Part shown: piece by piece, positions 2,116-10,829 of the stretch
Position numbering within the stretch: the stretch's first letter is position 1
How the letters are laid out: every line of letters begins with the position of its first letter
From: Pseudonocardiaceae bacterium
GTDB taxonomy: Bacteria; Actinomycetota; Actinomycetes; Mycobacteriales; Pseudonocardiaceae
Direction: 5' to 3'
Assembly: GCA_025937115.1 (NCBI GenBank)
Contig: JAICSB010000051.1
Location: 1-11,966, forward strand
Length of the DNA stretch: 11,966 nucleotides
Translations under genes and position numbers: made by a program
The notes under the pieces: generated by a model
The model's database searches: none
What the model was told of the DNA's origin: nothing
Seen by the model: the letters and a program-made list of their open reading frames with translations, nothing else

Positions 2116-2331
2116 CCCGGCAAGCGGGCCTGCGGCGGTGGGGTGGCTGATGTGCTCTGACCTGCTGTCGTGACGTCTTGGGAACCCTCTGCCAACGTAG
2201 CGTCCGACTCACCTACCACGCAGGTTCTTGTGAATGACGCTGTTCCCGCTGTCGCTAGAGTGAGAGTCCGCACACACGCCCACTGGACTATAGGTCGACA
2301 GGGGGACGCGTCATTATGAGGAGGCCACAGG
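2116..2331. other. Spacer upstream of the cold-shock gene
   Basis: This 216-bp stretch holds no supported gene. It contains the promoter and leader of the downstream cold-shock gene, but I find no convincing -35/-10 pair. TATAGG at 2289-2294 is a possible -10 without a good -35. A long leader would be usual for cold-shock genes. Confidence 0.4.
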
Positions 2332-2535
2332 GTGGCACAGGGCACGGTGAAGTGGTTCAACGGTGAGAAGGGCTTTGGGTTCATCAGCCCCGACGGGGGC
2401 GGCCCCGACGTGTTCGTGCACTTCTCGGCGATCGTGGGATCGGGTTTCCGGAATCTTGAGGAAAACCAGCGGGTTGAGTTCGAAGTCACCCAAGGCCAGC
2501 GCGGGCCGCAGGCCGCAGACGTCCGCGCTCTGTAG
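2332..2535 (+). CDS. Cold-shock domain protein (CspA family)
   Basis: Small single-strand RNA/DNA-binding protein acting as an RNA chaperone in cold or growth stress. The whole protein is one OB-fold cold-shock domain of 67 residues, the normal family length. RNP1 is KGFGFI at residues 13-18 and RNP2 is VFVHF at 27-31; the opening [16 protein letters not shown] and the ending [10 protein letters not shown] are typical of actinobacterial CspA. It starts at a GTG with a perfect AGGAGG at 2319-2324, 7 nt upstream, so strong translation is expected. It is the last intact gene before the tRNA remnant and the decayed island. In M. tuberculosis I do not recall a csp gene here, so it may have come with the island or belong to the local core. 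Confidence 0.96.
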
Positions 2536-2632
2536 AGACACGCAAAGAGGCACCGGATTTCTGGGCCTGTCACGATCGGCAGTGCGGCGGGGTGCCGCTG
2601 CTGGGCGCTATCGGACGCATCGGCACGCGGCA

Positions 2633-2688
2633 GCGGAGTGTAAATCCGTCGGCTGACGCCTTCCAAGGTTCGAATCCTTGACCCGCCA
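2633..2688 (+). tRNA. 3' half of tRNA-Tyr(GUA), probably a remnant or attachment site
   Basis: From 2633 the sequence gives a tRNA 3' half. The anticodon stem GCGGA/TCCGT (one G-U pair) closes a 7-nt loop with GTA at 2640-2642 (Tyr). A long class II variable arm follows, GGC-TGAC-GCC. The T-arm is CAAGG-TTCGAAT-CCTTG, and the 3' acceptor strand ACCCGCC with discriminator A ends at 2688; CCA is not encoded. The 5' half is not normal. GGCGGGG at 2586-2592 could pair with 6 of 7 acceptor bases, and CCGC 2595-2598 with GCGG 2627-2630 as a D-stem, but that leaves a 28-nt D-loop and a 103-nt RNA. So it is either a tRNA altered in its D-arm or, more likely, a 3' tRNA fragment of the kind left by integration. 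No second copy of the T-arm occurs in the window. Confidence 0.7.
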
Positions 2689-2873
2689 CGCAGCAGAAAA
2701 GGCCATTGACCAGCACAGGAACGGTTGACGGCCGACGTTGGTTGCGTCCGGCACTGTCCTACTGTGTCCGGCCGTTCACAGCCAGTCGCGCCCTATACGC
2801 GCCCCAGCGCCCGGCTCCATGTCGGAGATGGTGATGCCTTGCTGCTGCCTGACAATCGTGCATGCTGGGACTC

Positions 2874-3015
2874 GTGTGGCATCCCGTCGGCCTGGCGCAG
2901 TCCGACCACGCGGTGCCCCGGGGGCGGCTGCTCCCCCAACTACCGGCCGAGCTTGCCAGGCTTGCCCTCGGGGCACCGCGTGGTAGCCCTCGGGGAGGTC
3001 GACGGGATGCCACAC
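2874..3015. repeat. Large imperfect inverted repeat (two inverted copies of one coding motif)
   Basis: Outer arms 2874-2889 and 3000-3015 are perfect 16-bp complements. Inner arms 2905-2920 and 2969-2984 are another perfect 16 bp. The 15-nt stretches between them face each other and pair in part, so the whole 142 nt could form one long hairpin. Read outward-in on either strand, both copies encode the same motif pattern: WHPV-x-L-x4-HAVPRG. The plus copy reads WHPVGLAQSDHAVPRG and the minus copy WHPVDLPEGYHAVPRG. The variable residues differ while the conserved ones keep the same codons. This looks like two inverted copies of a short gene segment, not a simple terminator. I do not recognise the protein. 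Confidence 0.8.
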
Positions 3016-3440
3016 CCAACTCCCCGACCCCGCACCGGGCTTGACGTTTGGCATCGGCCATCCCGGAGGCCTGCCCGCCCGGCGAGAGCATGATGTGTTT
3101 GGGGCGCTGCGTTTGCTGATGGTTTGCTGATGTAGCGCCGGTGAGTCAACGCCGGCCAGGGCTTTAGTGGGGCTGGAACCGTTGGTTCGCCTGCGAAGAC
3201 GCGGGGCTCTCTGAATCAATATGCGTCGTGTACTAATGTATGTGCATATGCAAGTACAAATAGCAGGCATACACCAGACGGGCACGGGTCCCTACCGGCG
3301 TTGTTACGGTTCGTGGTCGAGTTAGTAATTTCGAGTGAAACGGGAGGGCGGGTCTACCGGATCTGGTGAGGTAAACCTAAGCTGATTTCCGTCAGTTCGA
3401 GTGATCCAGGGGGAAATGGATCTAGTGTTCGGTTTAGGTT
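3016..3440. other. Spacer without a supported gene, GC content falling
   Basis: No open frame here looks coding. It holds a perfect tandem duplication of 11 bp (GTTTGCTGATG at 3111-3121 and 3122-3132), enclosed by GGCGCT 3103-3108 and AGCGCC 3134-3139, which could form a hairpin. A palindrome TGCATATGCA lies at 3243-3252, flanked by GTACT and AGTAC; it could be an operator, but no gene starts nearby. Base composition drops sharply from about 3200 onward, marking foreign DNA. Confidence 0.5.
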
Positions 3441-3530
3441 GAGGCTTATTCAGGACAGTATTATTGATCTTGTGATACCCATCCCGAGCTGCAACGATCA
3501 GTCGTCAATCAAGATCGCTGAATAAGCCTC
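3441..3530. repeat. 90-bp element with perfect 13-bp terminal inverted repeats
   Basis: GAGGCTTATTCAG at 3441-3453 is exactly complementary to CTGAATAAGCCTC at 3518-3530. Inside, GATCTTG 3466-3472 is complementary to CAAGATC 3510-3516. The unit is AT-richer than the genome. It could be a miniature transposable element or the remains of one, or an RNA hairpin. I see no clear target-site duplication and do not recognise the ends. Confidence 0.6.
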
Positions 3531-3647
3531 GCTGTATCGCTGACTCAACTTGTGGCACGGGGCACTGATTCTCCGTAGAAGGTTCCCTGTGGACGCTCTA
3601 TGATCCGAAGGTCACTAATTGATTAACGCTAATTAAGGAGTACTGCT

Positions 3648-3988
3648 GTGCTGGTCACGACTGTCGCCAATGACGTTCCCCACCCGGTTAATGCAGCGTT
3701 CACCAGCAACGGGGGGGGGGCCACTTCTTGTATTCTTTGCAGGCTCTGCATTCCATGCAGCGGGTGGGAAGATTACTATGAATTTGCTGTTGGATGGAAA
3801 CGTCCTGACATCGGCCTCGGTCTACACCAACGAGAAACAATCCCACAAGGCACTGGTGCCTGTTTTCTTTTACACGTGTTCAATAAAGGCCGGGACACAC
3901 GCATTTACAGTGGAGAAAGGGGCCAATGCGGAAGTCGGCACAAAACGATTACTTTACTATTATTGTCACCGAATTCTCTCTAGACTAG
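3648..3988 (+). pseudogene. Small beta-rich protein gene with two homopolymer frameshifts
   Basis: A GTG at 3648 has an excellent AAGGAG Shine-Dalgarno sequence at 3635-3640. The first frame opens MLVTTVANDVPHPVNAAFTS and runs into ten Gs at 3711-3720. Removing one G moves into a frame reading GPLLVFFAGSAFH, NLLLDGNVLTSASVYTNE, SHKALVPVFF and AGTHAFTVE. Removing one A from AAAA at 3942-3945 then gives NDYFTIIVTEFSLD and a stop at 3986-3988. The repaired product is about 112 residues, mostly alternating beta-strand patterns with the flow FAGSA-LLDG-VYTNE-SHK-LVP-AGTH-NDYF. I have an impression of actinobacterial single-domain beta-sandwich proteins of unknown function, but no firm family name. 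Both breaks are +1 in homopolymers, so they may be sequencing errors, phase variation at the G tract, or decay. Confidence 0.6.
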
Positions 3989-4415
3989 CGGTGACTGGCC
4001 GGGCAGGGTTCTCGGCGGGCGGAGCTGGGCTTCCCTGCTGCTCTATGGGGTTCCTGGTACAGCTATGTCGAAAACTAACGGATATCGGCGGCGCACGTAG
4101 TCACAGAGGCTGCGCTGAGGGTGCGCGGTCGAGAGGCCCAGCGTCCGCCGTAGTTTTCAGCGGCGTGAACCCGCAGGTGAGGTACTTGCGAATTGTGTTT
4201 TCAGCGGAGGGAGGCTGGCTGCCGCTGAAACATCGCTTTCCAGCAGCAGCCAGCCTTTCGCCCCTTGCCGCAGTTAGCATTGAGTCGGCCGTGTCAAAGC
4301 AGCCTTTCCCGCCTTAACACGGTTGACTCGGCGTTAAACGTTCAGAGCGAGGGACGCTTATGAGGGCCTGACCAAGGCCGTGGTCTGATTTCTGGTGACT
4401 GTCCTCGCTTGGCGG
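3989..4415. other. Spacer with a hairpin, no gene supported
   Basis: No open frame shows coding character; the long plus-strand frame crossing it is only the shifted continuation of the preceding broken gene. GGCTGGCTGC 4213-4222 pairs with GCAGCCAGCC 4246-4255 (10 bp, followed by TTT) and could be a weak terminator. The motif TTTCAGCGG occurs directly around 4154 and 4199, and inverted around 4222, giving several competing pairings. Confidence 0.45.
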
Positions 4416-4444
4416 TTGACGGTCACATCGACCATGAGTTTAAT
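4416..4444 (+). promoter_or_regulatory. SigA-type promoter of the Cys-rich peptide
   Basis: TTGACG at 4416-4421, a 17-nt spacer and TTTAAT at 4439-4444 match the housekeeping consensus at five of six bases in each box. Transcription would begin near 4451, about 30 nt before the ATG at 4482. This is the clearest promoter in the window. Confidence 0.6.
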
Positions 4445-4481
4445 TGACACTGGACAGCAGCCGCTACGCGGAGGTCCAATC

Positions 4482-4607
4482 ATGATAATTGCCCGGGTTG
4501 TTCGTCTGATAGCTCCGGTACTGCCTGGTTGTGCCTGCGGTCCGGACTGCAAGTGCGGCTGCCAGCAAGGTGGCCCGTGCAAGGGCGGAGGCTGCGGCCA
4601 GTGCTGA
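4482..4607 (+). CDS. Cysteine-rich metallothionein-like peptide, 41 residues
   Basis: A 41-residue ORF with ATG at 4482 and GGAGG at 4470-4474, 7 nt upstream, behind a near-consensus promoter. The N-terminal 15 residues (MIIARVVRLIAPVLP) are hydrophobic with three arginines. The C-terminal 25 residues carry eight cysteines, at 17, 19, 23, 25, 27, 33, 38 and 41, in CAC, CKC and CGC clusters among Gly, Lys and Gln, with no His or aromatic residue. CxC repeats of this density are typical of metallothioneins, which hold Cu(I) or Zn(II) in the cytosol. It does not resemble the mycobacterial copper thionein MymT or the BmtA/SmtA family as I remember them. A metal-binding role is inferred from composition only; a cysteine-rich ribosomal peptide is the alternative. 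It stands alone in the island, with no visible metal-transport neighbour. Confidence 0.7.
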   Translation: MIIARVVRLIAPVLPGCACGPDCKCGCQQGGPCKGGGCGQC

Positions 4608-4935
4608 ACGGGCCCGGTATGGAGTACCAGGCAGGCAATCCGTGCCGGCACGGAGGGAGCCCTCGGCGGATCGATGGTTGTTCTCACTCACGGTTAGGTT
4701 ACGCGGCGAAATCGTCGCCGGGAGAGGGCTGGGGACGACTTCGATCGACGGAACAGACCGAGTTCGACGTGATCCTCATCGAGACGGGATGCTCATCGAG
4801 TCGGGGGAGAAGAAGGTCTAATTGTTGAGATGCTTGCTCGGTTCCTCGGAGCACGATAAGTTACAAGGGGGACAATTGTTCCAATTCTGCATGGGTTCGA
4901 TAAGGAAAATTCATCTACTCAGGGGGTCGACGTAG
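4608..4935. other. Spacer with a bL12-like scrap and a weak promoter
   Basis: No intact gene. At 4751-4821 the plus strand reads EQTEFDVILIE and, after a frame change within a duplicated CTCATCGAG segment, ESGEKKV and a stop. This is close to the EFDVIL...G-x-KK start of the ribosomal bL12 C-terminal domain and may be a fragment. TTGTTC 4876-4881, 17 nt and GATAAG 4899-4904 form a possible weak promoter for the gene at 4936. ACAATTGT 4872-4879 is a small palindrome overlapping it. Confidence 0.35.
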
Positions 4936-5292
4936 GTGTTGAGATTTCTATCTGATTGGTCGCATGAGCAAAGCGGCGACATTTGTCCAGGGGAATCGTT
5001 GTCCATCGAGTACGCTAGCGAGCGGCTCCAGGACTGCCGTGCCAAGCGCTACGGGCAAGACGCCTGGAGCATTACCGTCGGCATGCGCTTCCATCCGGGC
5101 GGAAGCGAGCAAAAGGGTGCGGTGACGACTCGAAAACAAAACGGCGAAATTGTGGCGGCGCCGCTAACAGTTGAGGTGCCCATCGGCACGACGAGGATCG
5201 AACTGTGGTTTCAGAATACTGACCACACGGGGTGTGTTGCTTGGGATAGTCGGTACGGTCAAAACTACTGGTTTGACGTCATTCCAGCTTAG
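4936..5292 (+). CDS. DUF6209-like small protein
   Basis: A 118-residue protein starting at a GTG with AGGGGG at 4921-4926. It ends with the pattern WFQNTDHTGCVAWDSRYGQ followed by NYWFDV. This, with CRAKRYGQDAW near residue 34, FHPGG near 52 and LTVEVPIGTTRIELWF in the middle, is what I remember of the DUF6209 family, a single beta-rich domain of unknown function in actinobacteria and some proteobacteria. Three cysteines (17, 34 and about 100) are present. No signal peptide or membrane segment is seen, so it should be cytosolic unless exported another way. A 7-bp hairpin follows the stop, so it is probably a single-gene unit. The alpha/beta hydrolase starts 264 bp downstream on the same strand. 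Composition is AT-richer than the flanks, consistent with transfer. The family name is from memory and unverified. Confidence 0.75.
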   Translation: MLRFLSDWSHEQSGDICPGESLSIEYASERLQDCRAKRYGQDAWSITVGMRFHPGGSEQKGAVTTRKQNGEIVAAPLTVEVPIGTTRIELWFQNTDHTGCVAWDSRYGQNYWFDVIPA

Positions 5293-5298
5293 ATACTG

Positions 5299-5321
5299 CG
5301 TGTCACGACCAACCTGACACG
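5299..5321 (+). terminator. Short hairpin after the DUF6209-like gene
   Basis: CGTGTCA 5299-5305 pairs with TGACACG 5315-5321 around a 9-nt loop, 6 nt after the stop codon. There is no T-tract, so it is only a possible terminator. From 5322 to 5556 I see no supported gene. Confidence 0.35.
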
Positions 5322-5556
5322 GAGGCTATCCCCGACCATGGCCCTTCGCGCTGGCGTTGATCGGATCGGTGACGGCGGGCTCTGATTGTCGCGCTTGAAG
5401 AGCGAGTGCAGAAGAGGATGCGCGCGCCGGGGCGCGGGTGGGCAGCGCGGATGACATCCGTGAGAAGGATCATCGCCTCGGAGACCGAGGTCAAAGGCTT
5501 TGAGTAGCCCGTCACTCAGTCCTGCGGCATCGCGGGAACATTTCGAAAGGACTAAC

Positions 5557-6786
5557 ATGACCGAACCAACCGTACAGCCATGGAACGTATTGTCGCCCAG
5601 AACAGCAGCCAAGCCACCGCCGGCGCCCGAACCGGATGAGATCTGGGACGATATCGGGCGGGGTACCGCGTGGGTCTACCGTAGCCCCAACCACACCAAG
5701 GTGGTCAGGCCCGTAATCATCTCCGATGGCTTCAACTCCGACAAAAGCGAACTAGACGAGCTTTGGCACGGCATGGAGCGCGGGGAGTTCCCCTTCATTA
5801 CAGAGCTACGGAATCAGGGAAGCGACCTGATCATTCTCGGTTATAATGAGAGGTCCGCGTCGATTCTGGAGAACGCAGAAGTCGCGACCGCGTGCATCCT
5901 TAAGGCGGCCAGCGAACCGAGCAGAGAAGTAGACCTGGCGGTCGGCGGCTTCAGCATGGGGGGTCTCGTCACGCGATACGCCCTCGCGAAGATGGAACAT
6001 GAAGAAGAGGACCACCACACAGAGCTGTACTTCTCTTATGACAGTCCGCACCGGGGTGCCTGGATCCCAATCTGTCTACAAGCGCAGGCACATTTCCTTC
6101 GGCCGCTCACAGCTGACATGTCTAACCAGATCAACAGTCCAGCCGCCCGTCAACTGCTGTTGTGGCACATTGCAGAATACAACGATACACCGGCCGAGGA
6201 TCCACTGCGCCGGGAGTTCCTGGACGAGCTAAACCGCGTCGGATGGTGGCCAAGAGAGCCCCACAAGCTTGCCCTCGCCAATGGGTCGGGCAGCGGTGAC
6301 GACAACGGAGTTCCGCCCGGAGCGGAGGCGCTGAAGTGCACTGGTCAACTCCATATTTTCAACACCACGACGCTGTACACCCAGGCTTCTGGCGACAACG
6401 AACTCGTCGCAAAGCTGAAGTGCACTGTCATTGACAATCCACCCAGCACCGAGCAGCCCATCGAGGTATACACAAACGAGATGCTGGAATTTGACGGTGC
6501 CCCGGGAGGAACACTAGAAAGTTTTGGGATAGCCCGTGATGTAATCGCCACCTACGCCCCGCTGGCAGTGACGAAATCAGACTACCGCTCGATCTGTTTC
6601 GTTCCATCCATCAGCGCGGTCGCAATCCGGGATCCCAGCAACCGCGAGAACCTATACGTCGACATCAGCGAGCTTCCAAAGGAAGACAGCGAACTGGACG
6701 AATTCCTATGTGCTACCGACAATCAAGCTCACTCACTGATGACCGAGGAACTTGGTAGACGACTCCTCGATCGGCTACCGAAGTAA
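5557..6786 (+). CDS. Alpha/beta hydrolase, PGAP1/lipase-like
   Basis: A 409-residue putative serine esterase or lipase. The start at ATG 5557 has GAAAGGA 5 nt upstream; an in-frame ATG at 5500 lacks a good site. The fold opens with VRPVIISDGFNSD near residue 50 (strand and oxyanion region). The nucleophile elbow is GFSMGG at 131-136, with Ser133 as nucleophile and GLVTRYAL behind it. SYDSPHRGAWIP at 160-171 is the conserved strand seen in PGAP1/DUF676-type lipases. Near the end, FVPSISAV (348-355) and CATDNQAHSLM (385-395) supply the likely catalytic His392. The first 45 residues are Pro-rich and probably disordered. There is no signal peptide, so it acts in the cytosol unless exported otherwise. 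The substrate is unknown. Codon use is AT-richer than in rpiB or pepN, which fits acquisition with the DUF6209-like neighbour. Confidence 0.85.
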   Translation: MTEPTVQPWNVLSPRTAAKPPPAPEPDEIWDDIGRGTAWVYRSPNHTKVVRPVIISDGFNSDKSELDELWHGMERGEFPFITELRNQGSDLIILGYNERSASILENAEVATACILKAASEPSREVDLAVGGFSMGGLVTRYALAKMEHEEEDHHTELYFSYDSPHRGAWIPICLQAQAHFLRPLTADMSNQINSPAARQLLLWHIAEYNDTPAEDPLRREFLDELNRVGWWPREPHKLALANGSGSGDDNGVPPGAEALKCTGQLHIFNTTTLYTQASGDNELVAKLKCTVIDNPPSTEQPIEVYTNEMLEFDGAPGGTLESFGIARDVIATYAPLAVTKSDYRSICFVPSISAVAIRDPSNRENLYVDISELPKEDSELDEFLCATDNQAHSLMTEELGRRLLDRLPK

Positions 6787-7164
6787 TACCAGCCCAAGCG
6801 GCGACTGGTAAGCGCAGTACCGAACAGCAACTTTTCGGGGAATGGGTGGAGGAGGTGACGGGACTGGGCGGCGGCGCCATGGCAATGGCCGCTGTCGAGG
6901 GAGTCCCTGCTGAGGCGGTATTGATGCGCGTGATTCAGCTTGTTGATCACCTCCGTTGCGGTGGTGCGCCTGCCGGGGACACAGGGCGTGCGACCGGGCC
7001 GTGACCGAGCACGGCCCCGCCAGGGCCGCGCGCAGTGTCGTGGTTCCGGTCGCACACCCCGGCGACGTCCGCGTTGCCGAGGGGTGCGAGCGCCGCCGCA
7101 GGCGGCCCTGCTCCCATAGAACCAAATTCGGCAGCAACGCACTGTAAATCGCTGTGTAGTCCCG
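6787..7164. other. Spacer, no gene supported
   Basis: About 380 bp with several long open frames on both strands, as is common in GC-rich DNA, and none convincing. The most protein-like is the plus frame open from 6759 to the stop at 7002-7004 (containing VTGLGGGAMAMAAVEGVPAE). It has no well-spaced Shine-Dalgarno sequence before its ATG at 6879 and no family I recognise. The stretch probably consists of remnants lying between the hydrolase and the insertion sequence end. Confidence 0.4.
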
Positions 7165-7401
7165 CCTGATGCTTGACGTTGCGGTCTCACCTGATGCTTG
7201 ACATCGGGCTGATCGGCCTTTCCCTCCTGTCCTTGTATGGACGGTGAGGGGGAGGCCGGGAATGGTTCTTGGTGGAGATGTCTGTTGTCGAGCAGCGCTA
7301 CCGCGCGGTCCTTGCGGTCGAGCGTGGTGAACCCAAGATCGCGTTGGCGGCCCAGTTCGCGGTCTCGCGTCAAATCCTGCATACCTGGTTGATCCGGTAC
7401 G
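7165..7401 (+). mobile_element. Left end of an IS481-family insertion sequence, truncated
   Basis: CCTGATGCTTGAC occurs twice, at 7165-7177 and 7190-7202, followed by about 75 bp of leader and the start of a transposase frame at 7278. I have seen CTGATGCTTGACATCGG-type sequence at the ends of actinobacterial IS481 elements, but this is from memory. Homology to the transposase stops about 7401, where the upstream region of the XRE regulator begins, so the rest of the element was deleted. No right end is present. Confidence 0.6.
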
Positions 7402-7439
7402 CGCCGTTGATAGCGTGGGCACGTGCGTGGTGCAGGTGA
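7278..7439 (+). pseudogene. IS481-family transposase, N-terminal fragment
   Basis: From ATG 7278 the frame reads MSVVEQRYRAVLAVERGEPK, then IALAAQFAVSRQILHTWLIR, about 42 residues matching the N-terminal helix-turn-helix of IS481-family transposases (usually VAxRFGVSRQSVHxWLxRYE). The remaining 12 residues to the stop are unrelated, and the DDE catalytic domain is absent. The gene is therefore a dead 5' fragment, where a full transposase has roughly 300 or more residues. GGTGGAG lies 3 nt before the ATG. Confidence 0.75.
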
Positions 7440-8374
7440 TCAGCTCAGCATCGGCGAGCGTATCGCCTTCTAACGGCGTCGCCGCGGATTGTCGCAGGTT
7501 GTGCTCGCTAACTTGGTGGGTCGGACTGAGGATTGGCTGAGCAAGATCGAGCGTGGCGAGCGGGAGATCCGTCGGCTAGATGTGCTCGCGGATGTGGCGC
7601 GGGCGCTTCGCGTCATGCTCGGTGATCTGCTTGGTGAGCCTGTGCTGTTGGAGAACGACGAGGAGCATGATGACGTTCCGGCCATTCGGGACGCATTGAT
7701 GGCTCCCCGGCGGCTGTCGCGGACGCTGTTTTCGTCGTCGATGCCGTTGGAGTACATCGACCCGGTTCCGGTGACGCGGCTGGCCGAGGGTGCGTGGGTG
7801 AGTTATCAGAAGGGCGATCTTGGCCAGGTCGTGACGGCGCTGCCTGGCTTGATCAAGACGACTCAGCAGATGGAGACCGCTTCTAGCGACGATGCGGATG
7901 AGTCAGACGACCCGTTGGTATTGGCGTCGGCTGCCCGATCGGGAACCCACGCGCTCCTGGCGGTGGGTCGGTTCGATGACGCTGTGGAACTGGGCGAAGT
8001 CGTCGCCCGATGGCTCTCGCCGAGGATGGGGAGCGGTGATCCTGCGGCGCTGAGTTTGTACGGGATGCTTTTTCTCCGTACGGCGGTGGCTGCCGCTCGT
8101 CAACAAGACCGGTCGACGGCAAATGAGCTGTTGGCACAGGCTCGTCGCGCGGCCGATCAACTGGGGGTGGACGCGAATTATTGGCCTGGTCGCCAAGGAT
8201 GACGACGCGCTGCAAACGCTGCTCACCGCTGAGCGGAAGTCACCGGGGATCGTGCGGCACAGTGCGGTCGTCCGGGAAGTCGTGCGGTCGATGTACCGGC
8301 GGGCTCCGGCGACCGCCGGTAAGAAGTCCTCGCCGCTGCTGGCGCTGGCCGAACGCTGCAGGGCGATGGGGTAG
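7423..8374 (+). pseudogene. XRE-family helix-turn-helix regulator, broken
   Basis: DNA-binding regulator of the actinobacterial XRE type with a TPR-like C-terminal sensor part. The reading frame from GTG 7423 gives RGAGDQLSIGERIAF, then TAA at 7471-7473 where the family has Tyr (IAFYRRRRGLSQ), then RRRRGLSQVVLANLVGRTED and IERGEREIRRLDVLADVARA. It stays open to about 8185. There LGVDANYW jumps into a different frame reading GLVAKDDDALQTLLTAERKS, which runs to TAG at 8372-8374. In intact relatives I recall roughly 40-60 more residues between those two points, so an internal deletion with a frameshift is likely. A TTG at 7489 could restart translation, but it lacks a Shine-Dalgarno sequence and would lose the first HTH helix. 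It sits 4 nt upstream of the flavoprotein gene, its usual partner. Confidence 0.8.
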
Positions 8375-8378
8375 CCGC

Positions 8379-8938
8379 ATGGGTTCACGAGTGCTGGGGT
8401 TGGTCGGTTCCGGCTCAGGTGGGCTGGAAGAGTTGCTTCCGCACCTGATCCGGCCCGCCCAGGATGCAGGGTGGACTGTCGCAGTTACGCTCACGCCGAC
8501 CGCCGGCCGGTGGCTGCAGGAATCCGGGACGCTCGCGGAAATAGAAGAGGCGTCAGGCTTTCCGGTGCGCGTTGATCCTCGCTCGCCGACCGAACGCAGC
8601 CCACACCCGCAGGTGGACTGTTACCTGGTCGCCCCGGCCTCGGCGAACATGGTCGCCAAGCTCGCCCTCGGGATTGCCGACAATCAGGCATTGACACAGG
8701 TCAACGAGGCGATTGGCATCCCTGACCTGCCGGTGGTCGTGTTTCCCCGCGTGAACGCTGCGCACGCCCGGCACCCGTCGTGGGACAGCCACATTGATGC
8801 CCTGCGCCGGGCTGGTGTGCACCTTGTTTACGGTGAGGACGTCTGGCCGCTGCACGAGCCGCGGAGCGCGCCGGGCGCGAGCTGCCCTGGTCTGCGGTGC
8901 TCAACGCGGTGAACGCGGCCGTTCCCGTCGCCCGCTAG
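8379..8938 (+). pseudogene. Flavoprotein (PPCDC/Dfp-like), frameshifted near the C-terminus
   Basis: FMN-binding flavoprotein of the HFCD family, related to phosphopantothenoylcysteine decarboxylase. In actinobacteria it commonly follows an XRE regulator, and its substrate is unknown. ATG 8379 lies 4 nt after the regulator's stop, implying translational coupling. VLGLVGSGSGGLEELLPHL opens the Rossmann-like fold. The signature is VAPASANMVAKLALGIADNQ, and VVFPRVNAAHARHPSWDSHI follows. In the current frame it ends at TGA 8910-8912 after WPLHEPRSAPGASC (177 residues). Shifting one base at about 8870 gives GRELPWSAVLNAVNAAVPVA and a stop at 8936-8938, the expected family ending, so one base seems to be missing in the run of GC. 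The core domain is complete and the altered tail might be tolerated. Either a sequencing error or real decay is possible. Confidence 0.75.
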
Positions 8939-9001
8939 CCTGTTACCGCAGCCAACGGCGACCATTACAGCTCACCGAGGGGGTCCTGGGCAGGGGCCGG
9001 A

Positions 9002-9361
9002 TCACAGTCTGCTCAGGGCGTCCACCACGTCGTCCGCGAAGGGCAAGTGCTTACGCAGTCCTGTTGTTGTCAGTGCCAGATTGGCGACTGGGCAGTTGCA
9101 CACAAATCGCAGGTGGCGGCCCTGGTCGATAGCGAGTTCGTTGGCCTCGAATAGCACGCGCAGCCCGGCAGATGCCAGGAACTTCAGACCGTCAAGATCT
9201 ACTACAACGATCTGGGCAACGGCAAGCTGTGCGGACAGACACGCGGCTAGCGTTGGTGCAGTCAGCGCGTCCACCTCACCAGTGACGCTGACGACGCGTG
9301 CATCGGGACCGTAATCGGTCACTTGGAAACCGACGAGGGGCATCGGGAACTCGCTGCTCAC
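9002..9361 (-). CDS. Anti-sigma-factor antagonist (STAS domain)
   Basis: A single-domain STAS protein of 119 residues, the size of SpoIIAA/RsbV homologues. Such proteins bind an anti-sigma kinase and release a stress sigma factor; phosphorylation of one serine switches them off. VVSVTGEVDALTAPTL (23-38) is the beta-strand/loop of the fold. VVDLDGLKFLASAGLRVL (53-70) holds the phospho-acceptor region, with Ser64 at the conserved position before A-G-L; the usual Asp before it is Ala63. I took GTG 9361 as the start, but no clear Shine-Dalgarno sequence precedes it; ATG 9343 is the alternative and keeps the whole domain. No sigma factor or anti-sigma kinase gene is next to it, so its partner lies elsewhere. 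It is intact and convergent with the flavoprotein. Confidence 0.9.
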   Translation of the reverse strand: MSSEFPMPLVGFQVTDYGPDARVVSVTGEVDALTAPTLAACLSAQLAVAQIVVVDLDGLKFLASAGLRVLFEANELAIDQGRHLRFVCNCPVANLALTTTGLRKHLPFADDVVDALSRL

Positions 9362-9769
9362 AACCGTACGATATAGGGTAAATCCCGCAGGAGCAGGTTA
9401 GCCGGGATGCTACCCAGTGGGTGCGCGGCTGTACAGACAGTCAGCACCGCTGGATCGTTGCCATCGTCGCAGGTCAACGGTCTGAAGTGAGTGGCTCAAC
9501 CGCCCGGCCAGCCCTCCCCCACGCGGGGCCCGCAACCCGTCGTGAGCCCAGTGCACCATTCCACTTGGCTGTCGGTAACCGTTACTCAAATGTTCACCCT
9601 TGATTCACCAATAATTCCGATAAGTGGGCGAAGCAAACGCGGATGTAATCGAGGCAGAGAGAGGCCCGTGTCAGCTCCGGCAGGCCTGTGGCCTGCCGGC
9701 GATAGCCGGCCGAGGAGTCGCAGGGACCCCCCGGGGTCAAGCCGTTACTTCCCGTTCCGTCCGGCCCCT
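9362..9769. other. Spacer with a strong short hairpin, no gene supported
   Basis: About 400 bp. CCGGCAGGCC 9677-9686 and GGCCTGCCGG 9690-9699 form a perfect 10-bp stem with a TGT loop, without a T-tract. From GTG 9491 a frame begins AQPPGQPSPTRGPQPVVSPV, continues as a plausible beta segment (WLSVTVTQMFTLDSPIIPIS) and then becomes Arg/Gly-rich. It may be the beginning of a gene cut by later insertion, but I cannot assign it. The upstream region of the STAS gene lies here too. Confidence 0.4.
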
Positions 9770-9922
9770 CCGGAGGTGACCCGCTTGGCACGGCTGACCT
9801 ACGTCGAGGGTGAGGACGGGATGCCCGCGCTCCGGCATCTCTACGCCTCGACCCTGGTAGCCCAGGGAGCAAGCTGGTCGCGGATCCTGAACGGCCTGAT
9901 GACGCCCTGGCCGGGTACCTGA
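9770..9922 (+). pseudogene. Tyrosine recombinase (phage-type integrase) C-terminal scrap
   Basis: The frame ending at 9922 contains PALRHLYASTLVAQGASWSR. Integrases of the lambda type have HDLRHxYAS-x-LIAxGxS in box II, with Arg and His as catalytic residues; here the preceding HD is PA, while R, H and the YAS-LVA-G run are kept. The Tyr box that should follow after about 25 residues (LGHxxxxxTxxxYxH) is absent, and the frame ends LNGLMTPWPGT. Upstream there is no catalytic first Arg box in frame. It is therefore a fragment, not a working enzyme. It lies at the right edge of the accessory stretch, with the tRNA remnant at the left edge. Confidence 0.5.
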
Positions 9923-9977
9923 AACCTGTTTCTGCACGTCAGTAGATTGGCGGACTCATCCTAACCGCCTGTTTGCT

Positions 9978-10039
9978 CCGACATGGGGACATATCGGGGT
10001 AAACAGGCCCTCAATAGCCCCGATATGTCCCCATGTCGG
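9978..10039 (-). terminator. Perfect 22-bp hairpin with pseudoknot potential at the hydrolase 3' end
   Basis: Arm 9978-9999 is exactly complementary to arm 10018-10039, with an 18-nt loop. On the minus strand the first arm encodes the last residues of the MBL hydrolase (PDMGTYRG), and the stop codon lies in the loop. No T-tract follows, so it would be an I-shaped terminator or an mRNA-stabilising structure. In addition, AAACAGGC in the loop (10001-10008) is complementary to GCCTGTTT at 9967-9974 just beyond the stem, so the RNA could form an H-type pseudoknot. Confidence 0.7.
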
Positions 10040-10829
10040 GCGGGTGCAGCCTGGCTAGGGCGGCGAAGGTGGTTGGAGGGGTGAAGGGGGAGAGGGCGGC
10101 TGCGGCGTTGTGGTCTAGCTCGGCAGACTGGACGGCTCGGCATAGGTCTGCTAGGGCGGTGAGGTCGTCACGTTGGGCGGCGACGAAATCGGCGGTTACC
10201 GGGTCGCCGTGTCCGGGGACGACCGTGCGCGGCGTCATGCCGAGGAGTTCGGTCACCGCGGCGGGCCAATCGAGCGGGAAGGCGTCGGTGAAGTCGGGAT
10301 CGGCACCCTGCTCGACGAGATCTCCGACGAATAGGATACTGGTATCAGGCGACCACACCACGACGTCATGGTCGGTGTGCCCCCGCCCGGGATGGGTCAG
10401 CAGCACCCGCCGACCGCCGAGGTCGAGCTCGACAGCATCAGTGATCAGCCGATCCGGCACCACCGGACGCACCAGCGCCGCGTCGTACGGTGTGCGCTGT
10501 GCGCGGGACCAGGCCAGCGCCTCGGCGTGCTGCACCGCACCGCCTCTGGCCAGGTCATCTCGGCACCGCGGATGCGCCCACACCGTGGTCGGCATGAAGG
10601 CCGCGGTGCCCAGGCAGTGGTCGAAATGGGCGTGGGTGAGCACCACGGTGCACGGCCACGAGGTGACCTGGCGAATCGCGGCGCGCAGTTCAGCGCCCTG
10701 ACCAGGATCGCTGCGGGTGTCGACGACCAGAGCATCGGAATCCCCGATCACCAGCCCCACGGAGAGATCCAACTCGGCGTACCGCCGAACCAGCACCCCA
10801 TCCGCCAATTCAACCCACCGCGCCGTCAC
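10011..10829 (-). CDS. MBL-fold metallo-hydrolase
   Basis: Zinc hydrolase of the metallo-beta-lactamase superfamily, 272 residues. THAHFDH at 65-71 is the HxHxDH metal motif (H66, H68, D70, H71). Further metal ligands are His151 in PGRGHTDHD, Asp170 in LFVGDLVEQG and His207 in VPGHGDPV, so the full set is present. The substrate cannot be read from the motifs; glyoxalase II-like, lactonase-like and beta-lactamase-like members share them. No signal peptide is visible, so it is probably cytosolic. GTG at 10829 has GGAGAG 5 nt upstream. It is divergent from rpiB, with about 50 bp between their starts. Its last codons form one arm of a perfect hairpin. It looks functional and lies on the conserved side of the island boundary, although I do not recall an equivalent beside M. 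tuberculosis rpiB. Confidence 0.92.
   Translation of the reverse strand: MTARWVELADGVLVRRYAELDLSVGLVIGDSDALVVDTRSDPGQGAELRAAIRQVTSWPCTVVLTHAHFDHCLGTAAFMPTTVWAHPRCRDDLARGGAVQHAEALAWSRAQRTPYDAALVRPVVPDRLITDAVELDLGGRRVLLTHPGRGHTDHDVVVWSPDTSILFVGDLVEQGADPDFTDAFPLDWPAAVTELLGMTPRTVVPGHGDPVTADFVAAQRDDLTALADLCRAVQSAELDHNAAAALSPFTPPTTFAALARLHPPDMGTYRGY

Follow-up and report, generated by a model that had tools for sequence, protein, structure and literature searches.

A candidate divergent MtpA-type metallothionein gene in a variable chromosomal interval of a Pseudonocardiaceae bacterium

SmtA/BmtA-type metallothioneins and mycobacterial MymT are small, cysteine-rich, cytosolic metal buffers. The 41-residue peptide described here is likewise small and cysteine-rich and would be a cytosolic metal buffer of a similar sort. 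A closer relative appears to be MtpA of Streptomyces coelicolor. Excerpts of the published record label SCO4227 "Metallothionein protein (mtpA)", beside SCO4228 phoU, and tabulate mtpA under the phosphate starvation response (PMC2267785). Other excerpts place mtpA "immediately downstream of phoU" with a promoter that responds to magnesium and not to manganese or zinc (PMC11019849), and report that phosphate limitation up-regulates mtpA independently of PhoP (PMC3282765). A review speculates on an oxidative-stress role of the MtpA metalloprotein (PMC7866108). The excerpts of literature searched contained no measured metal binding by MtpA, which is not proof of its absence in print. Relatives identified with MtpA by phoU gene order have the core CxCGxxCxCGCQxGxxC in common with our peptide, and most carry LP(L/V)LGA before the first cysteine.

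The peptide is encoded within an 11,966-nt window, by which we mean the whole stretch of DNA analyzed, at positions 4482 to 4607 of the plus strand. Translation of this ORF gives MIIARVVRLIAPVLPGCACGPDCKCGCQQGGPCKGGGCGQC, with cysteines at positions 17, 19, 23, 25, 27, 33, 38, and 41 of the 41 residues. An earlier note on this DNA had claimed a 41-residue ORF with eight cysteines in 25 residues, and the translation bears this out, the cysteine core being CACGPDCKCGCQQGGPCKGGGCGQC (positions 4530 to 4604, plus strand). Nowhere else in the window does a stop-to-stop segment contain at least eight cysteines per 25 residues, or even at least six, and a segment with eight arises in only 2 of 300 dinucleotide-preserving shuffles of the window. 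The hydrophobic N-terminal stretch that the note described is also real. Its end, APVLPG (codons at 4512 to 4529, plus strand), aligns with the LP(L/V)LGA segment found in most of the 115 relatives considered below; such a segment is lacking in several other relatives. Codon usage is uneven along the ORF, with a GC3 of 0.38 in the first 16 codons against 0.57 to 0.81 in nine other ORFs, and of 0.80 in the cysteine core.

Candidate signals for expression lie close to the ORF. The ribosome-binding site that the earlier note called perfect is indeed so, since a GGAGG Shine-Dalgarno sequence (4470 to 4474, plus strand) sits 7 nt 5' of the ATG. The promoter that it called near-perfect is a candidate sigma-70-like site, TTGACG-17-TTTAAT (4416 to 4444, plus strand), with a match of 10/12, the sole one of that level or better in the window, compared with a mean of 0.33 in 60 shuffles. 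Its -10 box has no A at the key position 2, and the site therefore went unreported by the site scanner; for the same reason, "near-perfect" is too strong a wording. Downstream, a perfect 8-bp inverted repeat with no spacer and no T run (4639 to 4654) starts 32 bp past the stop codon, and to call it a terminator is only a guess. A scan upstream of the ORF with RicR-, SmtB-, and PHO-like motifs found no RicR- or SmtB-like operator. It gave two PHO-like matches, at 4321 and 4414, each with two mismatches, which we regard as chance.

The peptide looks like an orphan because Pfam and NCBIfam offer no family at E ≤ 1, plasmid sequences give no match, a single-sequence homology search of proteins returned no candidate, and the two PDB matches, both to succinyl-CoA ligase (E of 0.49 and 0.93), were dismissed as chance. 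PADLOC, PHROGs, and Rfam likewise contain no match. Among the matches listed for loose DNA patterns in viral contigs were mainly simple-repeat-like Gly/Cys frames, as judged by eye. A family-based search gave a different picture. An alignment of 19 peptides retrieved 546 proteins at E ≤ 0.01 from the protein collection, with mild circularity in that the window peptide was one of its rows. About 80 of the best 120 are named Streptomyces and six have the UniRef name Metallothionein; two relatives match Metallothio_5 below its cutoff (15.1 and 14.2 versus 25 bits). The contrast between 546 proteins found by a family profile and none of the curated Pfam or NCBIfam models shows how such families escape curated libraries.

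To place the peptide, we used a profile built from 115 relatives with the window peptide excluded; these are the best 120 of the 546 minus five longer than 58 residues, a set biased toward the best-scoring members. The window peptide scores 37.3 bits against this profile. The best scores among three sets of 2,000 controls were 10.0 for full shuffles, 19.0 for core shuffles, and 33.9 for shuffles with the cysteines fixed, and none of the 6,000 reaches the score of the peptide. Since no cysteine-fixed shuffle equals it, the residues beside the cysteines also carry family signal. These controls, together with those for cysteine density, lead us to reject the reading of a functionless chance ORF, which the shortness of the frame, its place between larger ORFs, and the imperfect promoter match might otherwise favor and to which we attach next to no probability.

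Counted by column, seven cysteines are invariant in all 115 relatives. The window peptide keeps six of these in register and has glycine at the seventh, reading CKGGGC where the relatives have CQCGGxC, and its two later cysteines may stand in for the missing one. Because one of the seven invariant cysteines is replaced, we call the peptide divergent MtpA-type and not MtpA. Cysteine conservation in related loci had been set beforehand as a test, and it is found throughout the 115. The metallothionein-like reading of the earlier note gains from this conservation and from a heavy-metal-associated (HMA) domain fusion with CsoR-family repressor and P-type ATPase genes on either side, described below. 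The accompanying claim of resemblance to no known family is not supported, as the peptide can be placed in an actinobacterial family, in which the Streptomyces-type members adjoin phoU. The statement in the earlier note that standard gene calling would miss so short a gene holds only in part: MtpA-type relatives, mostly of 42 to 58 residues compared with 41 here, do appear in protein collections, for the most part as hypothetical proteins.

Within the family, the window peptide differs from Streptomyces-type MtpA in several respects. Its gene lies away from phoU, its C-terminal cysteines are rearranged in addition to the replaced one, and it does not have the longer polar N-terminus of Streptomyces-type members. 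Small peptides from three Nocardia species (L166, L183, and L228), VLPCACGPDCRCGCQ(D/E)GG, have a short N-terminus and a first half nearly identical to that of the window peptide. They end in CSC(G/E)D(E/K)C(R/Q)HE, however, whereas the window peptide ends in CKGGGCGQC. No metal genes were recognized by eye in the three Nocardia neighborhoods.

We clustered the neighbor genes of 40 relatives, of which 23 loci are Streptomyces-type. PhoU and PhoP occur together in the same 17 of the 40 neighborhoods (Pfam identification on one locus), and all 17 are among the 23 Streptomyces-type loci (14 from a set of 20, plus L359, L360, and L362). Except in L334, where it lies more than 3 kb off, PhoU is encoded on the same strand and ends less than 1 kb upstream (16 of 17). 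The vicinity of phoU is not universal, as 23 of the 40 neighborhoods have no PhoU match. The window peptide would be MtpA-type by profile, and the relatives would be MtpA by gene order beside phoU rather than by the SCO4227 sequence. A second Streptomyces-type setting without PhoU comprises L325, L329, L332, L335, L338, and L341; four of these six loci share an ORF just downstream, and four have a cytochrome bd oxidase-like gene upstream, as judged by eye.

The phoU association raises the question as to whether the main job of an MtpA-like peptide lies in thiol/oxidative or phosphate-starvation stress, with metal binding secondary. Besides the adjoining phoU genes, the excerpted reports cited above speak for such a role, with mtpA in the phosphate starvation table, its PhoP-independent induction under phosphate limitation, and the link to oxidative stress drawn in the review. 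Against it, the window copy has no recognizable phoU or phoP nearby, the upstream PHO-like matches are weak, and the fusion of relatives to a copper-chaperone-type domain points to metal. We consider a primary stress role unlikely. In the window, a PhoU match is lacking at E ≤ 1 and any PhoP match has an E of 0.10 or higher, and membership in a phosphate operon was rejected on the lack of recognizable phoU or phoP.

The best pointer to the metal is, by analogy, the context in Propioniciclava and its kin. Their modules, CxCGxDCxCGCQ(D/E)GK(P/A)CTC, have the cysteine spacing of the window peptide through the sixth cysteine. Unlike the window peptide, they are fused to a CopZ-like domain, occur in up to four copies, and have genes for a repressor of the CsoR family and for a P-type ATPase as neighbors. 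In both Propioniciclava loci seen in 12-kb context (L357 and L358), the module is joined to an HMA-type (CopZ-type) domain, with the repressor before it and the ATPase after it (Pfam matches on L358 only). Among the 15 other ORFs of the window tested, no metal or phosphate genes were recognized, and searches with eight metal-, phosphate-, and sigma-related gene types gave only weak matches (best E of 0.045).

We propose, with a probability of about 0.7, that the ORF is a genuine small gene for a divergent MtpA-type bacterial metallothionein, a cytosolic thiolate metal buffer, carried as an accessory gene in a variable interval. The peptide would most likely be made in the cytosol, where its CxCGxxCxCGCQxGxxC core would wrap thiophilic metal ions in a cysteine-thiolate cluster and thereby buffer or detoxify them. 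Thiolate binding is predicted here from family and composition, and expression, the metal, and the cellular role are likewise predictions from sequence. Cu(I) would be a first guess and Zn(II) or Cd(II) a second; Cu(I) is a guess and not a result because no metal gene was recognized among the window ORFs tested and the Nocardia neighborhoods appear, by eye, unrelated to metal. We regard this small metallothionein-like gene as real and probably functional, of the MtpA type and not a new kind. The assignment links what looked like an orphan ORF to a family that has a name but, in the excerpts of literature searched, no metal-binding data, and should be useful for annotation.

The peptide gene lies in a 7.9-kb variable interval (2134 to 10047). 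The interval has a GC content of 60.9% (0.574 at 3001 to 7000) against 65.3% and 66.5% in the flanks, and the 1-kb windows holding the ORF fall to 55 to 59%. The flanks carry, in order, a conserved pepN-like gene, an Rv2466c-like nitroreductase gene, a metallo-beta-lactamase (MBL)-fold gene, rpiB, and an fpg-like gene. We take the first of these to be pepN from the gene order of Mycobacterium tuberculosis and from translated similarity, with no domain match. Of the ten genomes that match the nitroreductase best, the eight that were read (all but G062 and G044) keep the nitroreductase-rpiB-fpg order, and in one of these eight the MBL gene lies between.

Nine loci were compared, one from each of the ten genomes most similar in the MBL gene except G707; four span the interval and five are one-sided contigs. 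Interval length in the four is about 0.8 kb (L379), 6.7 kb (L381), 0.8 kb (L382), and 2.4 kb (L384), compared with 7.9 kb in the window. The flanks of L379 are nevertheless 90% and 87% identical to those of the window, and the MBL side of L377 is 95% identical before the sequence becomes mostly different to the contig end. None of the nine loci, including the four that span the interval, holds a comparable cysteine-rich ORF, and no exact direct repeats of 10 to 25 bp were found between the two junction zones. The lower GC content and the differing interval lengths support the view that the peptide gene is accessory cargo, which would be carried between the genes for a mycothiol-dependent nitroreductase and an MBL-fold protein.

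Such a position also invites the reading that the ORF arrived with an insertion and has since lost its function, as a decaying or unexpressed remnant. The low GC content of this part of the insert, the loss of one invariant cysteine, and an adjacent DUF6209 match that covers only positions 126 to 236 of a 237-position profile are in line with it. The start codon, ribosome-binding site, and cysteine core are all present and the ORF is intact, however, and together with the GC3 of the core this makes a remnant quite improbable. The DUF6209 ORF (4936 to 5292) begins 328 bp past the peptide gene and is either truncated or a short form.

One further reading would make the peptide a precursor that, after ribosomal synthesis, is modified by the flavoprotein whose ORF spans 8181 to 8912. 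This ORF has a flavoprotein-family match and weakly resembles a peptide-cysteine decarboxylase model, and the last residue of the peptide is a cysteine. The decarboxylase match reaches only 16.5 bits against a cutoff of 215, though, and the flavoprotein ORF lies 3.6 kb off, past a hydrolase-like ORF and a regulator. With no further modification enzyme recognized among the ORFs tested, and a cysteine core that fits metallothionein-like relatives, we hold a precursor role to be very improbable. Within 7489 to 8912, an HTH regulator ORF (phrog_5823, E of 7.8e-55) overlaps the flavoprotein-family ORF.

A tightened DNA pattern, CxCG[A/P/S/T]DCxCGC, searched in one genome per species, gave 93 genome loci, 53 of which have an extended motif with one further CxC. 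Among the other 40 are frames due to chance or repeats, along with some likely relatives missed by the strict regular expression (e.g., L190 and L232). Loci with the extended motif span Actinomycetota, alphaproteobacteria, Bacillota, Bacteroidales, and Verrucomicrobia/Akkermansia. In whole-genome profile searches, 47 of 345 genomes matched in the class of S. oceani, and all 30 of those read contain the core. In the order of Nocardia, 8 of 348 matched, with stand-alone peptides in G003 and G257 and a tail in G277; the five remaining, unconfirmed matches (E of 4e-4 to 8e-4) are probably chance, and L273 to L275 were left unread in the orientation of the match. The family of G024, the genome with the best nitroreductase match to the window, gave matches in 13 of 297 genomes, at 14 places, of which one is a stand-alone peptide and 13 are tail-like.

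The same cysteine module forms the C-terminal tail of zinc-finger anti-sigma-like proteins at L344 to L353 and L361, with the core near the middle of each locus. Eleven of 13 tails were read in context (L320 and L322 left out). The strict regular expression fits 9 of the 11, L344 and L347 being variants by eye, and the single protein tested has a zf-HC2 Pfam match. Of these 11 loci, each of 11 to 12 kb, 8 contain an ECF sigma factor, 5 an ArsR-type regulator, 4 a P-type ATPase, and 4 a PepSY protein. A tail of this kind paired with an ECF sigma factor could possibly act as a metal-sensing sigma/anti-sigma switch. The tails are the more surprising result and perhaps a better lead than the peptide itself.

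More speculatively, and at somewhat less than even odds, the window peptide would be one mobile representative of a thiolate module, CxCGxxCxCGCQxGxxCxC, that is portable and distributed across several phyla. That module would serve as a stand-alone metallothionein (here, in Streptomyces-type loci, and in Nocardia), as single or tandem HMA fusions in Propioniciclava, and as the metal-sensing tail of ECF-paired zinc-finger anti-sigma factors, the window copy being an accessory metal-resistance cassette moving through an insertion hotspot. Should a single module underlie the metallothioneins, the copper-chaperone fusion, and the anti-sigma tails alike, sigma release under metal control becomes directly testable. 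At L343 (genome G257), a stand-alone 30-residue family peptide is separated by about 2 kb from an ORF that falls into one cluster with the anti-sigma proteins; an ECF sigma match and a PepSY gene are also nearby, and the module may there have split off as its own gene.
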